From Sulfurimonas sp. (GTDB lineage: Bacteria; Campylobacterota; Campylobacteria; Campylobacterales; Sulfurimonadaceae), in NCBI GenBank assembly GCA_027063505.1, contig JAMORO010000038.1, positions 57,169-121,168 of the forward strand: a DNA stretch of 64,000 nucleotides, in the 5' to 3' direction. The notes below the pieces were generated by a model, which searched no databases, had not been told where the DNA came from, and saw only the letters and a list, made by a program, of their open reading frames with translations. The position numbers and the translations under genes are program-made. Of this stretch, positions 1-63,801 are shown one piece after another (the stretch's first letter is position 1; each line of letters opens with the position of its first letter).

Positions 1-1809
1 TTATTACTATTAGCCCTTACTGAGGTTGCTAATGCCCAAGACACTGTAACAGATATTGGAACTGCATATGACAGACCTGAAAGTAAAGGTGGTTCTGAAG
101 ATGTATATGGTAACAAAATCCTATATCAAACAGTTGATATTACAAAGTCTAACTATAGTGTAGATAACTTCTGGAGTAACTTCAAAGGTGATAATCATTC
201 AAAAAGTACTTTTAATAATATATCTACATCGGGTATGTTTGAGTTAACTGTAGAAGAGACTTTTGCATGTAAAGATGGAGGCTTAAAGGTTGAAGGCTGT
301 TCTGGTCAAAAACCATTTTTAGTAAATGCTTCTGTACTTGACAATGAAGATACTCAAAAAGATAGTGTGGGGGCAGATTTACCTGAAGGCGAATATAGAA
401 TACCTTATGATAGTGCTGATAACTATGATAAAGACAATAATGATGCATTTTATGCACTAGATGTTTATAGAGATATGGATTACTATAGAGATGAAGCAAT
501 AGCAGCCACTGAAGGTAGAAAGAGCTTTTTTGGATATATAAAAGATCTTTTTACAAACTACTTTTCACCTGATACTGAGCAAACAGGTAGTGTACTAAAT
601 CAGGGTGAAAATGATGCGAAAGATCGTTATATGGCCAATATGGTTTTTGGTTTACAAAAAGATTATAGAGTACAGAAAAATGATCCCCTAGATCTTACAC
701 ACACAAATGCAGCAAACAGCAGTAAAAATATCTCACTTTTAGATTATAATGCACAGATGATAACTTCTACAACTAGTTGTAGTGGCTTCTTCTTATCTTT
801 TGACCCAGATAGTGTTACATGTCAAACTATCAGTTTTTTTGGTATGGCAAACTGGATGCCATTTTTTAGTGATAACTCTAGCCAAGAGATAGAGACTCAG
901 TCTGTTATGCAAGATACTGAAACTACTCTTTTAACTATCGCTGGAAAGTTAGATGGTAAGAATTATATTACTAATTATACATCAATAGATGAACATGGTC
1001 GAAGAAGTTTTGTTGGTGAAATCTTTAAACCAATGACAAGTATGATGGGTGGGATGTTTAGATTTTTCTTTGGAAATAGTTCAAGAACTACAACAGAAGT
1101 TGTATCTGCAAACTTTACTTTTGATAACCCAGCACCACTCTCATTTGTAACTACAGATGGATCATCTGTAATAGGTTTTGAAAAGTTTAAACTTTTAGGT
1201 CTAGAGAGTGTTTATGGAACTGTTGCAACCTCTTGTAGAGTTAAACAGAAAACAGGTTTTTTCAATTTATGGTCAGGTTATAGAACTTTTGTAAAAGGTG
1301 ATGGACAGGAAACAAAAATTGACATGGAGGGTGGTGGTTTTTTTAGTTTCTTAAGTTCAACTCCTGATTATGATGAGCTAAACTATGAGGAAGAAAACCA
1401 TAGATCTTTTGGTGACTGGGGACGTCATGATGTGGTAACTGTTACTTCTGATGATTGGATTGATTGGTGTAAAAGAAATCAGGGAAGACAAAGAAAAGGC
1501 TTATTTGGTAGAATGTTTGATAACTTTAATGATACAATAGACTATCTTTTAAATAAAGACAATACTTTAACTGGATATGATGAGCAGTTAGACGGTGTAC
1601 TTTCAGATGAACACTATACAGTTGATAAGTATAAAGAAAAAGTATATCATGGTTTAATCTTACATGTACAAAAAACAAGTAGTGAAGATATTAAAGTTGG
1701 GACTGTTGGAACAACAACATCATACAAGTTAATGAATGTTAATCAAGGTAATACTCGTGCAAACACTCATGGTAATACTCGTGGTAATGGACAAGGCGGA
1801 AAAAAATAA
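1..1809 (+). CDS. Uncharacterised exported protein at the head of the tad locus (5' end cut by window edge)
   Basis: Frame of the listed ORF (235..1809) stays open to base 1, reading LLLLALTEVANAQDTVTDIGTAYDRPESKGG..., i.e. the end of a signal peptide. Stop abuts the tadZ/cpaE start at 1810. Confidence 0.75.
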   Translation, partial: LLLLALTEVANAQDTVTDIGTAYDRPESKGGSEDVYGNKILYQTVDITKSNYSVDNFWSNFKGDNHSKSTFNNISTSGMFELTVEETFACKDGGLKVEGCSGQKPFLVNASVLDNEDTQKDSVGADLPEGEYRIPYDSADNYDKDNNDAFYALDVYRDMDYYRDEAIAATEGRKSFFGYIKDLFTNYFSPDTEQTGSVLNQGENDAKDRYMANMVFGLQKDYRVQKNDPLDLTHTNAANSSKNISLLDYNAQMITSTTSCSGFFLSFDPDSVTCQTISFFGMANWMPFFSDNSSQEIETQSVMQDTETTLLTIAGKLDGKNYITNYTSIDEHGRRSFVGEIFKPMTSMMGGMFRFFFGNSSRTTTEVVSANFTFDNPAPLSFVTTDGSSVIGFEKFKLLGLESVYGTVATSCRVKQKTGFFNLWSGYRTFVKGDGQETKIDMEGGGFFSFLSSTPDYDELNYEEENHRSFGDWGRHDVVTVTSDDWIDWCKRNQGRQRKGLFGRMFDNFNDTIDYLLNKDNTLTGYDEQLDGVLSDEHYTVDKYKEKVYHGLILHVQKTSSEDIKVGTVGTTTSYKLMNVNQGNTRANTHGNTRGNGQGGKK

Positions 1810-3012
1810 ATGGTTATTGCATATGTTTCGAGAGAAAATGAGGGTTGCTATAATGAGTTACATGATGATATCACAGATGTTAATAACTTTAGAGATATAG
1901 AAGAGTTTATCAACTACTATGCAACAAGTAAAAATAAAGATGTGGTTCTACTCTATAAAGTAGACTCGATTGATCAGATAGAGGCATTACGAGATATATA
2001 TTTTACTGATAACATCTATATGATAGTTATTGGTGAAGATAATAGTGACTACTCTTTATTAGCAGGTAAAATTGGTGTAGATGCTTATATACATGAAGAT
2101 AAAGCTAACTCTGTTTATATTAGAAATATTATTAGAGAATCACAAACCGTAATTAAAAAACGCCGTGGTCATAGTAATGTTTCTGTTTTTACAGGAATTA
2201 GTGGTGGTGTTGGTACAACAACTATCGCTATGAACCTTGCGAAATCTCTTTCTGAAAACAATCTAGATAAAAATGTCCTTTTTCTAGATTTTGCTTCTAC
2301 AAAATCAATCTCAAATCTCTTCTTCGATAATATTCAGCCTAAAAAAACTATTGTTGATATTGCTACTGTACAGCGTTTAGAGATGGCAGAACTTTTTGAA
2401 AATGGACTTGACCGTATTACAAATAACTTCTACTTTGTACCTGGTGTTCAAAAACATACAGATAGAGAGTATTTAGATAAGCCTGAAAATATTCAAATGT
2501 TTTTAAGTTTTATTCTTTATATTAAAGAGAAGTTTGATTTTATTATCATTGATGTTGGTGTTTTTGAAGATGTTGATTTAGAGATTGATATTCAAGAGAT
2601 AGCAGATAATATTTTTGTAATTACTGAGTTTAGTATTCCTTCTATGTCAATTTTAAAAACATATATAGATATTATTGATAAAAGTGGTTGGTATAAAAAA
2701 ACGCATATTTTTGCAAATAGATCAGATGCTTTTGGATCAGTAACTCAAGATGAGGCAAAAAAGATTTTGAGTAAAGGTTTAAAGCATGATTTTGATATTG
2801 ACTTCTCTTTGCCAAATGATGCGATGCATTTACGAGAGTGTTGGAATGAAGCACAACTTGTAAATGATGTTTATCCAAACTCACCTTTTATGAATGCTAT
2901 TAGAGAAGTTGGTGATAAGTTTTTTGTTCACGATGGCTCTATGTATATCAAGAACTCTCATATTGAAGAAAAAAAGCTTACATTTATGGAAAAGGTTAAG
3001 TCATGGCTTTAA
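1810..3012 (+). CDS. TadZ/CpaE-like pilus assembly ATPase (MinD/ParA superfamily)
   Basis: Deviant P-loop SVFTGISGGVGTTTIAMNLAKSL, LFLDFAS, FIIIDVG; directly upstream of a CpaF ATPase. Confidence 0.85.
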   Translation: MVIAYVSRENEGCYNELHDDITDVNNFRDIEEFINYYATSKNKDVVLLYKVDSIDQIEALRDIYFTDNIYMIVIGEDNSDYSLLAGKIGVDAYIHEDKANSVYIRNIIRESQTVIKKRRGHSNVSVFTGISGGVGTTTIAMNLAKSLSENNLDKNVLFLDFASTKSISNLFFDNIQPKKTIVDIATVQRLEMAELFENGLDRITNNFYFVPGVQKHTDREYLDKPENIQMFLSFILYIKEKFDFIIIDVGVFEDVDLEIDIQEIADNIFVITEFSIPSMSILKTYIDIIDKSGWYKKTHIFANRSDAFGSVTQDEAKKILSKGLKHDFDIDFSLPNDAMHLRECWNEAQLVNDVYPNSPFMNAIREVGDKFFVHDGSMYIKNSHIEEKKLTFMEKVKSWL

Positions 3013-4574
3013 AAGAAAAAATAAAAAATAGAAGCTATGTTCAAGAGACAGAAGTTAAAGAGGTAGAAGTTTCAGGACACAATGAAGATGAAGAGGGTAG
3101 TGCTGGCTGTGTTGATATGTGTTTTCCTCTTATGTATCAAAATGAGGAGTATTTTAATTTAGCTTGTGAAGTTTATGATAACTTTATTGAGCAGTTAAGT
3201 ATTAAAAGTCAATTAACAGAAGAGATGATTCGTGAAGTTATAACGAAACATATCTCAGAATTTTCACTTCCCAAAGTGGCATTAAAAGCTGAAATCGCTG
3301 ATTTTGTAACTGATAATCTTCTCTATTACGGACCAATCTCTACTATAATGAGAATGGCAGGAACAGACTTGAATGATATCATAGTCAACACAAAAGATTA
3401 TATTGATGTTATCTATAATGGTCAAACTATTGCTACTCCTTTTAGATTTAGAAATGAAGATGAATTAAGAAGAATTATAAATAGAATGCTTGCAGAATCA
3501 AATAGAAAAATTGATGAGTCAAGTCCTATTGCCTCATCAAAGCTTCCTGATGGTTCTCGTATAGAAATTCAAATTCCCCCCGTAGCAGCAAACTTAGATA
3601 AAGATGGGCAAGCAGGCTCTTATGTTACTGTAAGAAAGTTTCGTGAGATTCCTCTCCTCTTTGAATCGTTAGTTGATTCTCAAATGATAGACCTTAAAAT
3701 GGCATATTTTTTATTAAAAGCAATTCAAGGAAAACTAAATATTGTTGTCTCTGGTGGTACATCAAGTGGTAAGACAACTTTCTTAAACGCTATCACTCGT
3801 TTTGTTGATGAGAGTGATCAACTTCTTACTATCGAAGATACAAAAGAGATGAAACCACAACTGCCATGTCATGCTATTCGTTCTTTTGAAACACGTCCAC
3901 CAAATGAAGAGGGTGCCGGAGAAATAAATATTGAGTCTTTACTTCGTACAGCTCTTCGTTCATCTCCTCGTCGTATTATTGTTGGGGAGTGTAGGGGTCC
4001 AGAGATTGTAACCATGTTAAACGCTATGAATACAGGTCACCCTGGTTCTATGACAACTATACATGCTGATGATACAAAAGAGGCTATTGTTAGGATAGAA
4101 AATATGTTTTTAGAAGCACGTCCTACAGCAAATATGAACTTTGTTCGTTCTCAAATAGTATCAGCAGTTGATTTAATCGTACAGATTGTTCGTTTTCCTG
4201 ATGGTCGTAGACGTATTGTAAAGATATCAGAACCAGAAAAACGTGTTGAAGAGAATGGTGTTGTCTCAATGCTAGATCTTTTTGAGTTTCAACGATCAGT
4301 AAATGCTGAGAATCCAATGGATTCTAGTGGTGAGTACAAAGCTGTATCTGCATCTATTCGTTCGGCAACTAAAATGCTTCATAATGGTATTATCCTTGAT
4401 AAAAACATTTTTAATAATGACTTTACAGTTTCAAGAGAGATGCTAATAGAAGAACTTAGAGCCTTTCATCCAAAAAGAATGTGTGGTTGGAAACTGAACT
4501 ATATGAGTGAAATAGTAAAAGCAACCCATTCATCTGGACAAAATTTACTAGAGAGATGGCCAAACCTACAATAA
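3003..4574 (+). CDS. TadA/CpaF secretion ATPase
   Basis: Walker A GGTSSGKTTFLNAI, LTIEDTKEMKP, RIIVGECRGPEIVTMLNAMNTGHPGSMTTIHAD. Confidence 0.95.
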   Translation: MALKEKIKNRSYVQETEVKEVEVSGHNEDEEGSAGCVDMCFPLMYQNEEYFNLACEVYDNFIEQLSIKSQLTEEMIREVITKHISEFSLPKVALKAEIADFVTDNLLYYGPISTIMRMAGTDLNDIIVNTKDYIDVIYNGQTIATPFRFRNEDELRRIINRMLAESNRKIDESSPIASSKLPDGSRIEIQIPPVAANLDKDGQAGSYVTVRKFREIPLLFESLVDSQMIDLKMAYFLLKAIQGKLNIVVSGGTSSGKTTFLNAITRFVDESDQLLTIEDTKEMKPQLPCHAIRSFETRPPNEEGAGEINIESLLRTALRSSPRRIIVGECRGPEIVTMLNAMNTGHPGSMTTIHADDTKEAIVRIENMFLEARPTANMNFVRSQIVSAVDLIVQIVRFPDGRRRIVKISEPEKRVEENGVVSMLDLFEFQRSVNAENPMDSSGEYKAVSASIRSATKMLHNGIILDKNIFNNDFTVSREMLIEELRAFHPKRMCGWKLNYMSEIVKATHSSGQNLLERWPNLQ

Positions 4575-57719: not shown

Positions 57720-57960
57720 AATGTGATTTTCATCTTTTATAAGTAGATTATACAATAAAAATAAAATATAGAGGATGTATTGGTGTATTTAGGTAAAGTT
57801 TACTACGAGCCACTACTTAGCCAAGTTTATTGATATTGTTACTGTACAATACGAAAAAATATAATTAATTAATCACTTTAAGTTTCAGATTTTTTGGTAC
57901 CGTTTTTAGTGATGTTTTATTTTAGAGGGCTCTTAAATGCCCTATACAAAGGGGATTTGC

Positions 57961-58008
57961 ATGCAAATAAGAGTCTATTACGATTATAAGGTAGACTTAT
58001 ATTTTTAG
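57961..58008 (+). pseudogene. Truncated YbgC-like thioesterase 5' end (MQIRVYYDYK...)
   Basis: ATG CAA ATA AGA GTC TAT TAC GAT: matches the conserved xIRVYYE/D start of YbgC, then diverges to a stop. Confidence 0.3.
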
Positions 58009-58073
58009 TAAGAACCCGCTAAAATAGGCATGTCTGCACATGACATTTTCTACTTTCGACGAAAAAAGCTCAA

Positions 58074-58096
58074 AAAAAGGGCACAGTTTGGGCACA
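58074..58096 (+). repeat. 23-bp direct repeat, copy 1
   Basis: AAAAAGGGCACAGTTTGGGCACA, identical to 62648..62670. Confidence 0.85.
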
Positions 58097-58470
58097 CCTC
58101 TAACTTCATTCTATAATTCCTGCTTCATTCAATGCTGAAACAAAATTAGCACTCACTTCTTTAGATAACTTCTCTATCTGCTGCTTATGCTCTCTATACA
58201 TCTGTTTATGTTCAGCTGTATCCTTTTGCAAGGTCTCTGCGAAATATTTACTATATGCTCTAAACTCATCTATTATGACATCTATTTTTGTATGATAATT
58301 CTCACCACCAATTGTCTTAATCTCAACATGATTGGGTTCAATCCTCTCTACATTCCAAACTATTCCCTTCTTTGTTTTTATTTTGCGACTGGAGAGTAAG
58401 TTTGCTTTGTCGCACTGAAGCATGAACTTGTAGAAGTTAAAATTAATGCCATTATTTTTAACGGTTGAAA

Positions 58471-58475
58471 TATGT
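58471..58475. repeat. Target site duplication TATGT (left)
   Basis: Immediately left of the IS end; identical pentamer on the right. Confidence 0.85.
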
Positions 58476-58576
58476 TGTAGAGAAGCGCACACTTGGCCAC
58501 CCAGAAGCGTCAACACTTGGCCAGTAAATTTCTAAAAAATATTCTTATGACATTCTACCATAGGTGGCCAAGTGTT

Positions 58577-59317
58577 TTATCCATTTGCAAGTAATTCTCT
58601 CATAGACGGACCACTGAGTTCAATTTTATGAGCAGTGTGTATAAGTCTATCCATCATAGCATCAGCTATAGTTTCATTTCCTAAATATGCATACCACTCT
58701 TTTATAGGGAGTTGAGCAGTTATGATGATAGAGCCATTAAGTGTTCTCTCTTCAATTATCTCAAACAAGTCATTTATTTCATCACCTTTGAGAGGTGTTA
58801 CACCAAAGTCATCAAGTAGCAAAAGTTTGAACTTTGAAATCTTTGCAAGTGTCTTCGTATAACTCCCATCCAGTCTAGCCATCTTTATCTCTTCAAGAAG
58901 TGTAGTTACTCTGTAATATTTTGCAGAGTATCCAAGAGAAATAGCTCTTCGTGCTATAGCTTGAGCTAAAAAACTCTTACCAGTCCCAGTAGCCCCTGTA
59001 AGAAGTATGTTCTGAAACTTGTTTATAAACTCACAGTTTGCTAGAGAGAATATCTGAGACTTATCTAATTTTCTTTTTGCATGGTACTGAATCTGATCTA
59101 GTGATGCTGAAGAATCCTTGAGTTTAGCAACTGTGAGTATTCTCTTTATTCGTTTGTCCTGTCTCTGGTTTATCTCTGCTTCAAAGAGATGGTAGAGTCT
59201 CTCTTCAAACGATAGTGACTGGTACTTCGTATCTTCACTCTGAAATAATAGAGACTCTTTAAATCCTGAAAGACTGAGTTGTGCTGTTTGTTCTATGAGT
59301 GTTGCAAGTGTTATCAT
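58577..59317 (-). CDS. istB: IS21-family helper ATPase IstB
   Basis: NILLTGATGTGKSFLAQAIARRAISLGYSAKYYRV, LLLLDDFGVTPL, HTAHKIELSGPSMRE. Confidence 0.95.
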   Translation of the reverse strand: MITLATLIEQTAQLSLSGFKESLLFQSEDTKYQSLSFEERLYHLFEAEINQRQDKRIKRILTVAKLKDSSASLDQIQYHAKRKLDKSQIFSLANCEFINKFQNILLTGATGTGKSFLAQAIARRAISLGYSAKYYRVTTLLEEIKMARLDGSYTKTLAKISKFKLLLLDDFGVTPLKGDEINDLFEIIEERTLNGSIIITAQLPIKEWYAYLGNETIADAMMDRLIHTAHKIELSGPSMRELLANG

Positions 59318-60923
59318 TATTTTAGTTCCTGAGTTGGTGTAGTTATAGTTTGTGAATAGTATTCACTACCTCTTATATTTTCATGTCCATTGACATAGGA
59401 GTTATTAGAAACTTGATGCTGACTGTGAAGTAGATAGCTCTTTGTTTTTAGCATTGACTCTATTGAAGCTACTTTATAACTGTTAACCTCAAGTGCAACT
59501 GTAGATACAGCTTCTAGTGCAGAGGTACCATAAGTCTTTGAAAAACTAAGTATCGCCATACAAGATTTATATCCTCGTGTAGGATGTGCACGATTCTCCA
59601 TAATCTTTTCCATTAGTGCTGTTGTATTAGCTCCTATAGAGTTAGCCCAGTTAAGTATTCTTCTAGGATTCCATTTCTCATATTGATACTGATGGTCAGT
59701 TGGCATATGTTCTAAGAGGGTTGAGTCGTGATATTTCTGTGAGAGTCGTGGATGGTGTGCAATAGTCTCTCCATTAAGTGAGATAAGTACAGATGATTCA
59801 GAGTAAGTGACATCTACTTTTTTACCTAAGTGAATATAAGGAACTGAGTAACCACTTCCTTCTAACTCTATATGATAATCTATCCCTACAGTAGCTCGTT
59901 TAAACTCTTTGAAGATATATTGGTTTGCTCTGAGTGGGTGTAGCATAGGTTTATCAAGAGCTTCAAATAGCTCTGTTCTACTTTTACCTATTCTTCTAAG
60001 TATTTTATTATTGTAACCATCAATGAGTAGGTTTATCTGCTGGTTGAGTTCATCAACACTGAAAAATGTATGGTGTCGTAGTTTCATCAGTATCCATCTT
60101 TGAATAGCTTTTACTCCTAACTCTACTTTAGATTTATCCTGTGGTCTGTAGGGTCTTGCTGGCTCTACTGCAACACCATAATGCTCTGCCATATCTTTAT
60201 AGCTGTCGTTTAATCGCACTAGTCCTTTCTTGTGAGAAATCACTGCTGCTTTTAGATTATCAGGTACTAAGATGTTTGGAACTCCTCCATAGAAGTTAAA
60301 GGCTTGAATATGGGACTCTATGAAGTGTTTGGTTGATTGAGTTCCTGTTGCATGAACAAACGTATATCCACTTGCACCTAGAACCGTTACGAATATTTGA
60401 GCCTTAGATATCTCTCCAGTTATTTGGTCTGTAATTGGCATGGTTAAGCCACTATAATCGATGAAGAGTTTATCTCCACTGTAGTGAACTTGTCTCATGG
60501 ATGGATTTACAGTTTTAACGAACTTCTTGTAGTAGCGATTAAACTGGCTATAGCTATATATAGAGGGTTGTTTCTACCCTCAAGGGGCACCTCGTCTTTT
60601 AGCTCTTCCCATAGTAGATGCCTTGTCATACCTTTACGACTTAACTCTTCGTGAATCTCATTCCAATCTGGATGGATGAGAGTTGAGTTCTTTTTAGGCT
60701 TTAAAGGTCTGTTGGAGATGAATAGTTGTGATAGTTCTGTGTCGCTTAGGTTGAGTACTTCTTCGAGTGAAGAGTCTAGTTCTATATAACTCTTTATATA
60801 GTTGGCAACACTATTACGAGATACACCTGTCATTGTTTGGATCTGTCTGTTTGATAATTGATTACGATATTTTAATCGTAAAACCTCTTTTATTTTACTC
60901 ATTGATACTCTCCTCAATTTCAC
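59317..60923 (-). pseudogene. istA: IS21-family transposase IstA, frameshifted into two ORFs (59317..60498 and 60507..60923)
   Basis: N-terminal HTH (LSNRQIQTMTGVSRNSVANYIKSY) and catalytic part (MRQVHYSGDKLFIDYSGLTMPI...) lie in different frames; the second frame extends upstream as SIYSYSQFNRYYKKFVKTVNPSMRQVHYSG. Confidence 0.8.
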
Positions 60924-61072
60924 ACCTCTTTTTAGGTGTATTATAGTTGAAGAATATCTTTTAGTTTAAATCTACCTTATAGGAGCATCAAGAGAAGTAG
61001 TGGCTACTTATGAGACGCTCACAGTGGCCAAGTGTTAACGCTCGCGGTGGCCAAATGGAGTGCTTCCCTACA

Positions 61073-61077
61073 TATGT
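61073..61077. repeat. Target site duplication TATGT (right)
   Basis: Matches 58471-58475. Confidence 0.85.
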
Positions 61078-61477
61078 ATATGAAAACCTGTCTCTTCATT
61101 TGTGTAGCCATATTTATTGATGATTGGACATATCGTTTGGATGTAGTGTTTTATCCCTGAAGCTGTAGTGATTGGTACAGAAATCTCTATACCATTATCT
61201 TCTAGTGAGATGTCAGGTTTAATCTGTAGGCAGTTGTTTTTATCTTTGTCTGTTGGCAGATTAATTGTATCAACTAAAATTTCTACATCTGTGAGTTCAT
61301 ACATCTCTTTAACTATCTCATCAATGATTTCATTAAATCTGTGCTCTGTTGTATCAATATAAAATTCAAATTCACAACCATACTGATACTTGTTAGCTTG
61401 ATTAAGGGCATAGGAAGGATACGAGCAATTGCTATTTGCTTCATACCTTTTAGTGGTTTCATTTGTAGTATATTTCA

Positions 61478-62086
61478 TTATCCCTCAATCATTGCATCTA
61501 AAGTGCTATGTAGTTTTTCTATTTTATAGTCAGTGTTGTTAGTCCACTCTTGAAGAGGTTTTTGATCAGTTGGCAGTGCTGCATCTGGTTTCATATACAC
61601 AAAAGCACGCTTCACACCATGATGTGACTTCACCTCTATTTTCTTTCTTACATAGTAGTCTGGAGCACCTTCAAACTTATCAATCTTGCTCATAAGTTCA
61701 GCTCTTGTTATCTGATAGAGTTCGCCTTTGATTTTCGAGATTGGTGCATCAACAATATACGGGTAGTTCCCAAAAGAGTCTTCAAACATTGCAAGTTTTT
61801 TTACAGTATGAGCCTTGCCAAGCCGTTTGGCATATTTGCTAAGAAGATTATGATTGTCAAAGCCTTTTTTGAGTGATCCATACACAAAGAGTAGCTCACT
61901 AAAGGAATCTTCTTTTTTGAAGTAGCCTTTTTTTACAATTGTAATCACACCGTTATCATGAAGTCTATGAAGTATTTTTCTAGTTGTATCTGTAGAAATA
62001 CCTTCAACTTTAGCAGCAGAAAATGGTACGATGACATCTGTTTCTAATGATTGTACTTTACGATGTATTTTTTCTGTATAAGACAT
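61478..62086 (-). CDS. Winged-HTH / gamma-glutamylcyclotransferase-like (AIG2/GGCT) fusion protein
   Basis: N-term VPFSAAKVEGISTDTTRKILHRLHDNGVITIVKKGYFKK (wHTH); then LLFVYGSLKKGFDNHNLLSKYAKRLGKAHTV...YPYIVDAPISKIKGELYQITRAELMSKIDKFEGAPDYYVRKKIEV (GGCT fold). Confidence 0.82.
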   Translation of the reverse strand: MSYTEKIHRKVQSLETDVIVPFSAAKVEGISTDTTRKILHRLHDNGVITIVKKGYFKKEDSFSELLFVYGSLKKGFDNHNLLSKYAKRLGKAHTVKKLAMFEDSFGNYPYIVDAPISKIKGELYQITRAELMSKIDKFEGAPDYYVRKKIEVKSHHGVKRAFVYMKPDAALPTDQKPLQEWTNNTDYKIEKLHSTLDAMIEG

Positions 62087-62104
62087 ACTCTACTCCTCTG
62101 TTTA

Positions 62105-62149
62105 TATCGTGACAATATTATAGCTAAAATATATAATTTTGTCACGATA
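62105..62149 (-). promoter_or_regulatory. Promoter with operator-like perfect 11-bp inverted repeat upstream of the wHTH-GGCT gene
   Basis: TATCGTGACAA (62105-62115) ... TTGTCACGATA (62139-62149). Minus strand reads GTGACA-17 nt-TATAAT, then AGGAG RBS and ATG at 62086. Confidence 0.75.
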
Positions 62150-62352: not shown

Positions 62353-62721
62353 TTAACAGGTGGTGACTTCAAAGGAGATGTGTTTTTAAACAGCTCTAGG
62401 AAACCATTTTACAGTCATGACATTATTGCTGTACAGTTTAAGAAGTTACTTGAAGAGGGAGACAAACGTTATCTCTATCAGCTAAGACATTCATTCGCAA
62501 CAATGATGATTACACAAGGTGAAGACATCTTGTGGGTCAGTCGCATGCTAGGACACAAAAGTTCTGACATCACATTGAAGACATATGCAAGAGCATATGA
62601 ACTATCTAAAGATAAAAGCAAGCGTCAAAAGCGTGCTGCATTTTTAGAAAAAGGGCACAGTTTGGGCACAGTCAACAATCTTGACTACCGCAAAGCCCCT
62701 AAAATAGGAGAGAACAGGTGA
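62353..62721 (+). pseudogene. Tyrosine recombinase/integrase, C-terminal remnant
   Basis: LTGGDFKGDVFLNSSRKPFYSHDIIAVQFKKLLEEGDKRYLYQLRHSFATMMITQGEDILWVSRMLGHKSSDITLKTYARAYE: catalytic R, H-x-x-R region, GHKS and Tyr present, N-terminal half missing. Confidence 0.85.
62648..62670 (+). repeat. 23-bp direct repeat, copy 2 (inside integrase 3' end)
   Basis: Identical to 58074..58096. Confidence 0.85.
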
Positions 62722-62864: not shown

Positions 62865-63578
62865 TTATTTTACTCGACTTTTGAGGTGCTTAATAATAAA
62901 TGCTGGAGCTTCATTTCCAAGAGTTACATATTCACTTATTGGTTCAACAATCTCTATGTCAATTTGATACTTTTGCATATTTATATTTTCAAGTGCCTGT
63001 AAAAATATTTTCAAATCTTCTTGGGTAATTCTTTCATTACTTAATAAGCTATCTATGACAGTATCATCTTTACTGATTGCTACGGCTATATCAAAAATAT
63101 CTCTAGCCTTATTGTCTTTTTTTCTGAAAACAATTTTCTTTGCTAAAATATCTTCAATAGATTCAACTCTAATATTAAAACTAAATATTTTTTTTGAAGA
63201 GTCTATGAGTAGGCTAGAAGAACTTGAATCAACTAAAATATCTACTTTAATGTTATTAGCAGAGACAACACCTATATGATTATGAGCATCTATGTAATGC
63301 CTATCATCAAAATTACCAGTATCTTCTATCCAATGCTTTGGACTAAAGTATGATAGATACTGCTGGTCTATTAAGAAAAGATCAATATCGAAACTAAGTC
63401 TATGTTGAAAGTAGTAAATAGAAAGAGCTGTACCACCACCAAATTTAATGACATTTTTGTCTAGGGTTGAAGCAAATGCATCTTTAAAAAAAAGTTCAAA
63501 AGCTTCTATCTGCTCTGTGTAATTCTCATGTATAAAATTGAGATTGTTTTGATTAATATAAATCTGTTGATAAGACAT
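62865..63578 (-). CDS. Nucleotidyltransferase AbiEii-like toxin
   Basis: NVIKFGGGTALSIYYFQHRLSFDIDLFL NTase motif; VESIEDILAKKIVFRKKDNKARDIFDIAVAI. Confidence 0.88.
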   Translation of the reverse strand: MSYQQIYINQNNLNFIHENYTEQIEAFELFFKDAFASTLDKNVIKFGGGTALSIYYFQHRLSFDIDLFLIDQQYLSYFSPKHWIEDTGNFDDRHYIDAHNHIGVVSANNIKVDILVDSSSSSLLIDSSKKIFSFNIRVESIEDILAKKIVFRKKDNKARDIFDIAVAISKDDTVIDSLLSNERITQEDLKIFLQALENINMQKYQIDIEIVEPISEYVTLGNEAPAFIIKHLKSRVK

Positions 63579-63801
63579 GTTTTAGTTTGGAAAGTGGGAT
63601 ATGATAGTCTTGAGAAAACCATGATATTTCGTCTTGTGTTGCTTCTGTCTTAATAGTATTAAGTGCATACTTTTCAATATTAGAGAAGTCACTACTTTTA
63701 CTGAACAGTTGGCATAAAGATTTTATGGTTAAATGGTTCTTTTTATTACCTATTGAGTTGTTTACAGTTAATAGTAACATAGGTTGAAACTTATTTTGCA
63801 T
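63553..63801 (-). CDS. Small partner protein of the AbiEii-like toxin (putative antitoxin)
   Basis: 82-aa ORF overlapping the toxin start by 26 bp; own -10 (TATAAT on minus strand near 63830-63835). Confidence 0.6.
   Translation of the reverse strand: MQNKFQPMLLLTVNNSIGNKKNHLTIKSLCQLFSKSSDFSNIEKYALNTIKTEATQDEISWFSQDYHIPLSKLKHVLSTDLY

Follow-up and report, generated by a model that had tools for sequence, protein, structure and literature searches.

Gene neighbourhoods that combine an amidoligase, or COOH-NH2 ligase, with a protein of the AIG2 or gamma-glutamyl cyclotransferase (GGCT) family were reportedly described by Iyer, Aravind and co-workers. In Firmicutes, GCS2-like genes are paired with Aig2 genes (PMC2588565), and the pairing of amidoligase and GGCT/AIG2 is also found in phages, e.g., in the UFV-P2 cluster (PMC3890496; see also PMC10945688). 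Such neighbourhoods place an amidoligase of the glutamine synthetase (GS) fold beside or near a GGCT-family protein, as does the cassette considered here, which lies in a stretch of 64,000 nucleotides from Sulfurimonas sp. (contig JAMORO010000038.1), referred to below as the window. In the known neighbourhoods, however, the components are separate proteins, often accompanied by genes for a glutamine amidotransferase or an ATP-grasp enzyme, whereas the window cassette consists of two genes only, its GGCT carries an N-terminal winged helix-turn-helix (wHTH) domain, and a conserved candidate operator precedes it. The amidoligase-AIG2 pairing is thus already known, but the fused, self-regulated form appears new: no description of the wHTH-GGCT fusion, of the operator or of a toxin-antitoxin role for such pairs was found in the literature searched, whose coverage left many subscription papers outside. 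The cassette is tentatively read here as a mobile two-gene module that makes and breaks an amide bond, most likely in a toxin-antitoxin-like role, for which we infer the chemistry, the repression and the toxicity. The parts of the cassette and its control region are listed below.

62105-62149, no strand: candidate operator, two inverted 18-bp half-sites TATCGTGACAnnnTTATA, with arms at 62105-62122 and 62132-62149
62117-62145, minus strand: predicted promoter GTGACA-17-TATAAT, lying within the operator and agreeing with the consensus at 11 of 12 positions
61478-62086, minus strand: wHTH-GGCT gene, first gene of the operon, 202 amino acids, frame intact
61907-62086, minus strand: N-terminal winged-HTH domain, residues 1-60
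61544-61891, minus strand: GGACT-type GGCT domain, residues 66-181, with the invariant YGSL and E139
61078-61478, minus strand: 5′ part of the amidoligase-like gene, with GCEFEF, DISLEDNGIEIS and GFHIH
58106-58475, minus strand: 3′ part of the amidoligase-like gene, without 23 codons near 58387 (alignment to relatives)

The first gene was described in the first-pass annotation, a reading of the bare sequence, as a fusion of a wHTH to a GGCT domain, and the fusion is borne out by profile and structure. The Pfam family GGACT (PF06094) matches residues 66-181 of the protein with E=1.7e-22 (80.7 bits against a cut-off of 22.8), and it is matched by all 22 members of the wHTH-GGCT family. In the AlphaFold model (pLDDT 87), residues 3-58 follow the wHTH-type order H-(E)-H-H-E-E and lead into a GGCT barrel, for which the mouse (1vkb) and human (3jub) GGACT are the top Foldseek matches (E about 1e-9). 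The sequence profile matches the solved human GGACT (3jub) with E=1.7e-14; Y69, G70, S71, L72 and E139 are invariant in 22 relatives, and E139 aligns with the catalytic E82 of the human enzyme. By profile, motif and fold, the product of the first gene, which is 56-61% identical to its six first homologues, belongs to the GGACT/AIG2-like gamma-glutamyl cyclotransferase family. Human GGACT resembles it most closely in solved fold and sequence and shares the conserved catalytic Glu, but it has no wHTH and stands outside any operon. Judging from family membership alone, the chemistry of the pair would be that of gamma-glutamyl amides.

The second gene starts within the stop codon of the first (TAATG at 61475-61481), an overlap already noticed in the first reading. 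Since the window copy of this ligase gene is broken, it was searched as separate pieces, and intact relatives were used for family and fold work. The 5′ part is 55-61% identical to intact homologues, and the ligase hidden Markov model (HMM) matches the 3′ part as two pieces, 135-163 and 186-279. The amidoligase-like motifs named at the outset are real and conserved in the alignment of relatives, where ExE at 36/38, SL...G.E and TG.H.H are invariant; in 22 sequences, on alignment alone, the residues E36, E38, E98, H133, H135, R165 and E206 do not vary. For the AlphaFold model of the ligase (pLDDT 86.7, pTM 0.86), Foldseek finds glutamine synthetases and YbdK among the structures of the Protein Data Bank (PDB; E 3e-5 to 1e-4); 1-naphthylamine GS and gamma-glutamyl-methylamide synthetase are among these matches. 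In BFVD, the model matches phage amidoligases (E 4e-11). The lack of an amidoligase match had been set as a test capable of refuting the reading; the reading survived it through the fold, with a family-profile match below threshold. Amidoligase_2 (PF12224), the only Pfam family touched by many of the ligases, matches 11 of 22 members weakly (best E 5.7e-4), and the scores seen, 12.2 to 17 bits, stay below the curated cut-off of 22. A direct PF12224 search of the cassette's own genome gave no match because the ligase family falls below this cut-off, and the ligase profile matched no PDB sequence either. As the profile-profile comparison with canonical Amidoligase_2 of Campylobacterota was not significant, membership in that subfamily was considered, dropped and is not claimed. 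From its predicted fold, the ligase is a divergent branch of the GS-fold amidoligase superfamily, separate from the canonical Amidoligase_2 of the same phylum.

The canonical Amidoligase_2 genes of Campylobacterota (L038-L049) adjoin a Peptidase_C26-like gene, as checked by Pfam in four of them, and form a second make/break pairing within the phylum. There too, an amide-maker stands beside a predicted gamma-glutamyl amide breaker, but the ligase subfamily and the breaker fold are different and no wHTH fusion was seen.

The two genes are found together wherever the ligase is found. Its 5′ piece identified five intact relatives beyond the window in 399 genomes of the order, and a survey covering about 85,000 species returned 28 ligase loci, one of them on a short contig labelled Flavobacteriaceae and all others from Campylobacterota records. 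All 31 contigs found through the ligase (window included) have the GGCT gene directly upstream of it, so the adjacency in other genomes, which had been set as a test capable of refuting the pairing, survived in intact pairs across Campylobacterota. The two genes either overlap slightly or are separated by a short gap, of a few bases in each case; the 214 bases printed for L025 reflect a late start choice, as the frame extends back to the GGCT. The two proteins diverge in a correlated way (r=0.83; Mantel 0 of 5000). Very divergent pairs at L137 (4427-6145) and L138 (191-1924), identified with the GGCT profile, are still adjacent, although their ligases score only about 1e-50, and their GGCT carries a C-terminal extension. 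The distribution of the GGCT is patchy (11 of 175 and 20 of 228 genomes in a profile search of two families). The ligase cassette was also found on two Aliarcobacter plasmids, one of them inspected, and on one IMG/VR contig whose flanks do not look viral; the phage search gave no ligase match, and its GGCT matches span the GGCT domain only. The pair occurs in vent and sediment bacteria as a small mobile unit.

The operator-like repeat proposed upstream of the pair is real, with the 18-bp arms given above. All 26 alignable cassettes have an inverted repeat upstream, some 20 bp ahead of the start codon, and its cores are 25-27 bases apart. Its half-site, about 18-20 bp long, has the consensus WATCGTGACAnnnTTATA in two inverted copies. 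The -35 element lies within one half-site and the -10 element within the other, and this position of the promoter is conserved across the aligned cassettes. Zero matches to the full motif are expected in shuffled windows. Across the 2.1-Mb assembly, a single site matches the core pattern exactly, and the idea of a common host regulator site was rejected on this ground. In the two of the 31 contigs in which the GGCT has no wHTH (L032 and L036), the inverted repeat is also missing. The divergent wHTH groups have other repeats, read by eye: direct ATCGTAACA repeats in L135/L136, and inverted TTTGAAA/TTTCAAA repeats, unlike the main operator, in the promoters of L137/L138. Because the repeat is missing where the wHTH is missing and different where the wHTH differs, it appears to track the DNA-binding domain. 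This is the strongest available evidence for autoregulation, a prediction from sequence that was made at first reading, is strengthened by the operator conserved across cassettes and is now well supported at that level. The wHTH-GGCT protein would accordingly be the repressor of its own operon.

A similar arrangement is known from AbiE systems, in which the antitoxin AbiEi regulates its own expression through two monomers bound to a pair of inverted 23-bp repeats in the promoter, with 3 bp between them (PMC7319586). The AbiEi/AbiEii type IV toxin-antitoxin pair shares with the window pair the form of a two-gene mobile cassette and a wHTH at the N terminus, followed by an effector domain at the C terminus; the proposed antidote-first order and the predicted autoregulation, by way of long inverted repeats in the promoter, would be further points in common. 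For the wHTH itself, PADLOC AbiEi models give matches in 15 of the 22 members (best 1.3e-6, a modest value), with PDLC02226 covering residues 1-58 of the window protein; Pfam AbiEi_4 reaches 0.015 in one divergent wHTH member only. Among PADLOC models the wHTH is therefore nearest, weakly, to AbiEi antitoxins. The partners differ, as AbiEi is followed by the nucleotidyltransferase AbiEii, whereas the window pair combines a GGCT C-terminal domain with a ligase that has, by Foldseek, the GS fold and not that of a nucleotidyltransferase. An AbiEii-type nucleotidyltransferase gene does lie at 62865-63801 of the window, overlapping a short upstream open reading frame (ORF) of 82 amino acids for which no AbiEi model gave a match; the two are possibly a second toxin-antitoxin-like pair.

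In the window, the ligase gene is interrupted by an insertion sequence (IS) with the following parts.

58476-61072, minus strand: IS21-like element, 2.6 kb, splitting the ligase gene, with rve and Mu-transpos_C_2 matches
58577-59317, minus strand: istB, matched by IstB_IS21 (PF01695, E=1.6e-63)
59317-60498 and 60507-60923, minus strand: istA in two frames

The istA/istB pair, the 48-bp terminal inverted repeats and the short target duplication (TATGT, 5 bp, at 58471-58475 and 61073-61077) place the element in the IS21 family; with istA in two frames (59317-60923), it may be defective or use frameshifting. The second lesion, absent from the first-pass annotation, is the loss of 23 codons from the 3′ part, which in the alignment include several residues invariant in intact relatives. 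The window copy of the ligase is dead because of the insertion and the missing codons, while the GGCT frame and the promoter are intact, and the working circuit first proposed for this window is thus contradicted. The ratio dN/dS against L016 is 0.19 for the 5′ ligase part and 0.06 for the GGCT, a difference with few changes behind it, from which no conclusion is drawn.

This decay is one-sided beyond the window as well. An open GGCT stands with a broken or lost ligase in six to seven loci (the window, L022, L023, L036, L130, L134 and possibly L119), and no intact ligase without a GGCT was seen among the loci examined. The ligase is truncated in L022, carries a 137-residue deletion in L036 and is gone from L130 and L134, whose GGCT is intact. 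In L023 it is split by an IS3-like element (1071-3779) beside an intact GGCT, and the same genome has an intact cassette, L011; the two different IS elements, IS21 and IS3-like, struck the ligase within the same third of the gene. L116, whose start codon looks lost, was left out of the intact-orphan count, and in L121 and L139 both genes are lost or broken together. At L119 (4511-5167), the GGCT domain is fused to a different N-terminal domain and adjoins a relaxase gene, without a ligase.

No conserved third gene was found: besides the pair, no neighbour family occurs in more than 5 of 39 loci. Integrases, a relaxase, AbiE, BrnT and Vsr occur among the neighbours, as do ordinary housekeeping genes, and one copy adjoins tmRNA. 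Five copies or remnants (L009, L010, L028, L116 and L121) adjoin the same Gly-Leu-Cys-Ser tRNA cluster, near ilvD-like genes, which is a shared integration site in different genomes. The wHTH-GGCT/ligase cassette is thus a mobile, self-contained pair, and in the window it is flanked by a repeat.

58074-58096, plus strand: 23-bp direct repeat, copy 1, just downstream of the cassette
62648-62670, plus strand: 23-bp direct repeat, copy 2, at the 3′ end of a truncated tyrosine-recombinase ORF (62380-62721)

The recombinase fragment matches Phage_integrase with E=8.8e-8, and the repeat occurs in these two places only in the genome; the two copies are possibly remnants of attachment sites. When positions 57932-62037 of the window are compared with L016, the identity is 95.8% between the GGCT and the IS and 82.8% across most of the 3′ ligase part and the downstream flank. 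The two sides of the insertion therefore have different histories, which suggests recombination at or near the IS21 element.

The analysis shows the fold families, the fusion, the universal pairing, the operator conservation and the one-sided decay, and the proposed mechanism builds on them. The GS-fold amidoligase would join a carboxylate, probably the gamma-carboxyl of glutamate, to an amine, and the GGACT-type cyclotransferase would remove such gamma-glutamyl amides as 5-oxoproline. The N-terminal wHTH would bind the two inverted half-sites across its own promoter and repress the operon. An unchecked ligase would be harmful, with the wHTH-GGCT protein serving as both antidote and autorepressor; in this genome, the ligase would have been knocked out while the antidote and the operator were retained. 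Such a toxin-antitoxin picture, absent from the first considerations of this locus, fits the antidote-first order, the overlap, the own operator, the mobility and the plasmid occurrence, and it is now favoured because the decay is one-sided and the wHTH is AbiEi-like. In the known DarTG system, the antitoxin enzymatically reverses the modification made by the toxin. The proposed logic of a writer toxin and an eraser antitoxin would be the same here, but the chemistry and the folds differ. It is possible, though somewhat doubtful, that the pair represents a new toxin-antitoxin type, in which the target of glutamylation, or of a similar conjugation, by the amidoligase is an essential small molecule, protein or RNA, and the wHTH-cyclotransferase both erases the mark and represses the operon.

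Several points weigh against this picture. The AbiEi match is of modest strength, the PADLOC library holds few other wHTH families, and Pfam HTH_29 and others match the wHTH about as weakly; two cassettes, L032 and L036, carry a GGCT without any wHTH. The decay counts are small, with a length-proportional chance of 0.58^6 or 0.58^7 (0.02-0.04), the truncation in L022 could be an assembly problem, and the few GGCT orphans that are intact may have been repurposed as regulators.

The strongest alternative is the metabolic trigger-enzyme circuit of the first-pass annotation, in which a useful gamma-glutamyl or similar conjugate is made by the ligase and recycled by the GGCT, while the wHTH-GGCT adjusts its own level by sensing that conjugate, with no toxicity. 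Enzyme and repressor are coupled in BirA, and the same anatomy (a fused wHTH-enzyme, an operator, an invariant catalytic Glu) would suit such a circuit. The known amidoligase-AIG2 neighbourhoods have also been interpreted as systems of metabolism or modification (PMC2588565). However, the pair has no conserved pathway genes around it, and its occurrence is patchy and mobile. The circuit also predicts ligase-only copies, of which none was seen; as the loss of either gene would be expected of an ordinary biosynthetic ligase, the one-sided decay fits it less well, and we consider it less likely than the toxin-antitoxin-like reading.

Ligand-responsive detoxification is a good deal less probable. 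Here, the GGCT fold would sense a foreign amine or conjugate and derepress a ligase that glutamylates and thereby inactivates the amine. Inducible resistance operons are typically repressor-first, as this one is, and the Foldseek matches to 1-naphthylamine GS and gamma-glutamyl-methylamide synthetase point the same way, but the YGSL and catalytic Glu invariant across the family argue against a pure sensor, and the neighbourhood has no conserved transporter or other resistance gene. Least probable is an anti-phage defence, with a ligase that, during infection, would modify some component of the host or the phage and that the GGCT would otherwise silence. In its favour are the copies near AbiE, BrnT or Vsr genes and the tRNA cluster as a common site in five genomes; against it stand a ligase (L010) without PADLOC match and many copies among housekeeping genes.

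The toxin-antitoxin-like module remains the preferred, tentative reading. Amidoligase-GGCT pairs were recognised by genome comparison around 2008-2009. A small, self-contained pair with its own switch, a defined DNA site and a one-way decay makes this old prediction directly testable. If the ligase is toxic, the writing and erasing of amide bonds would join the chemistries of bacterial conflict.

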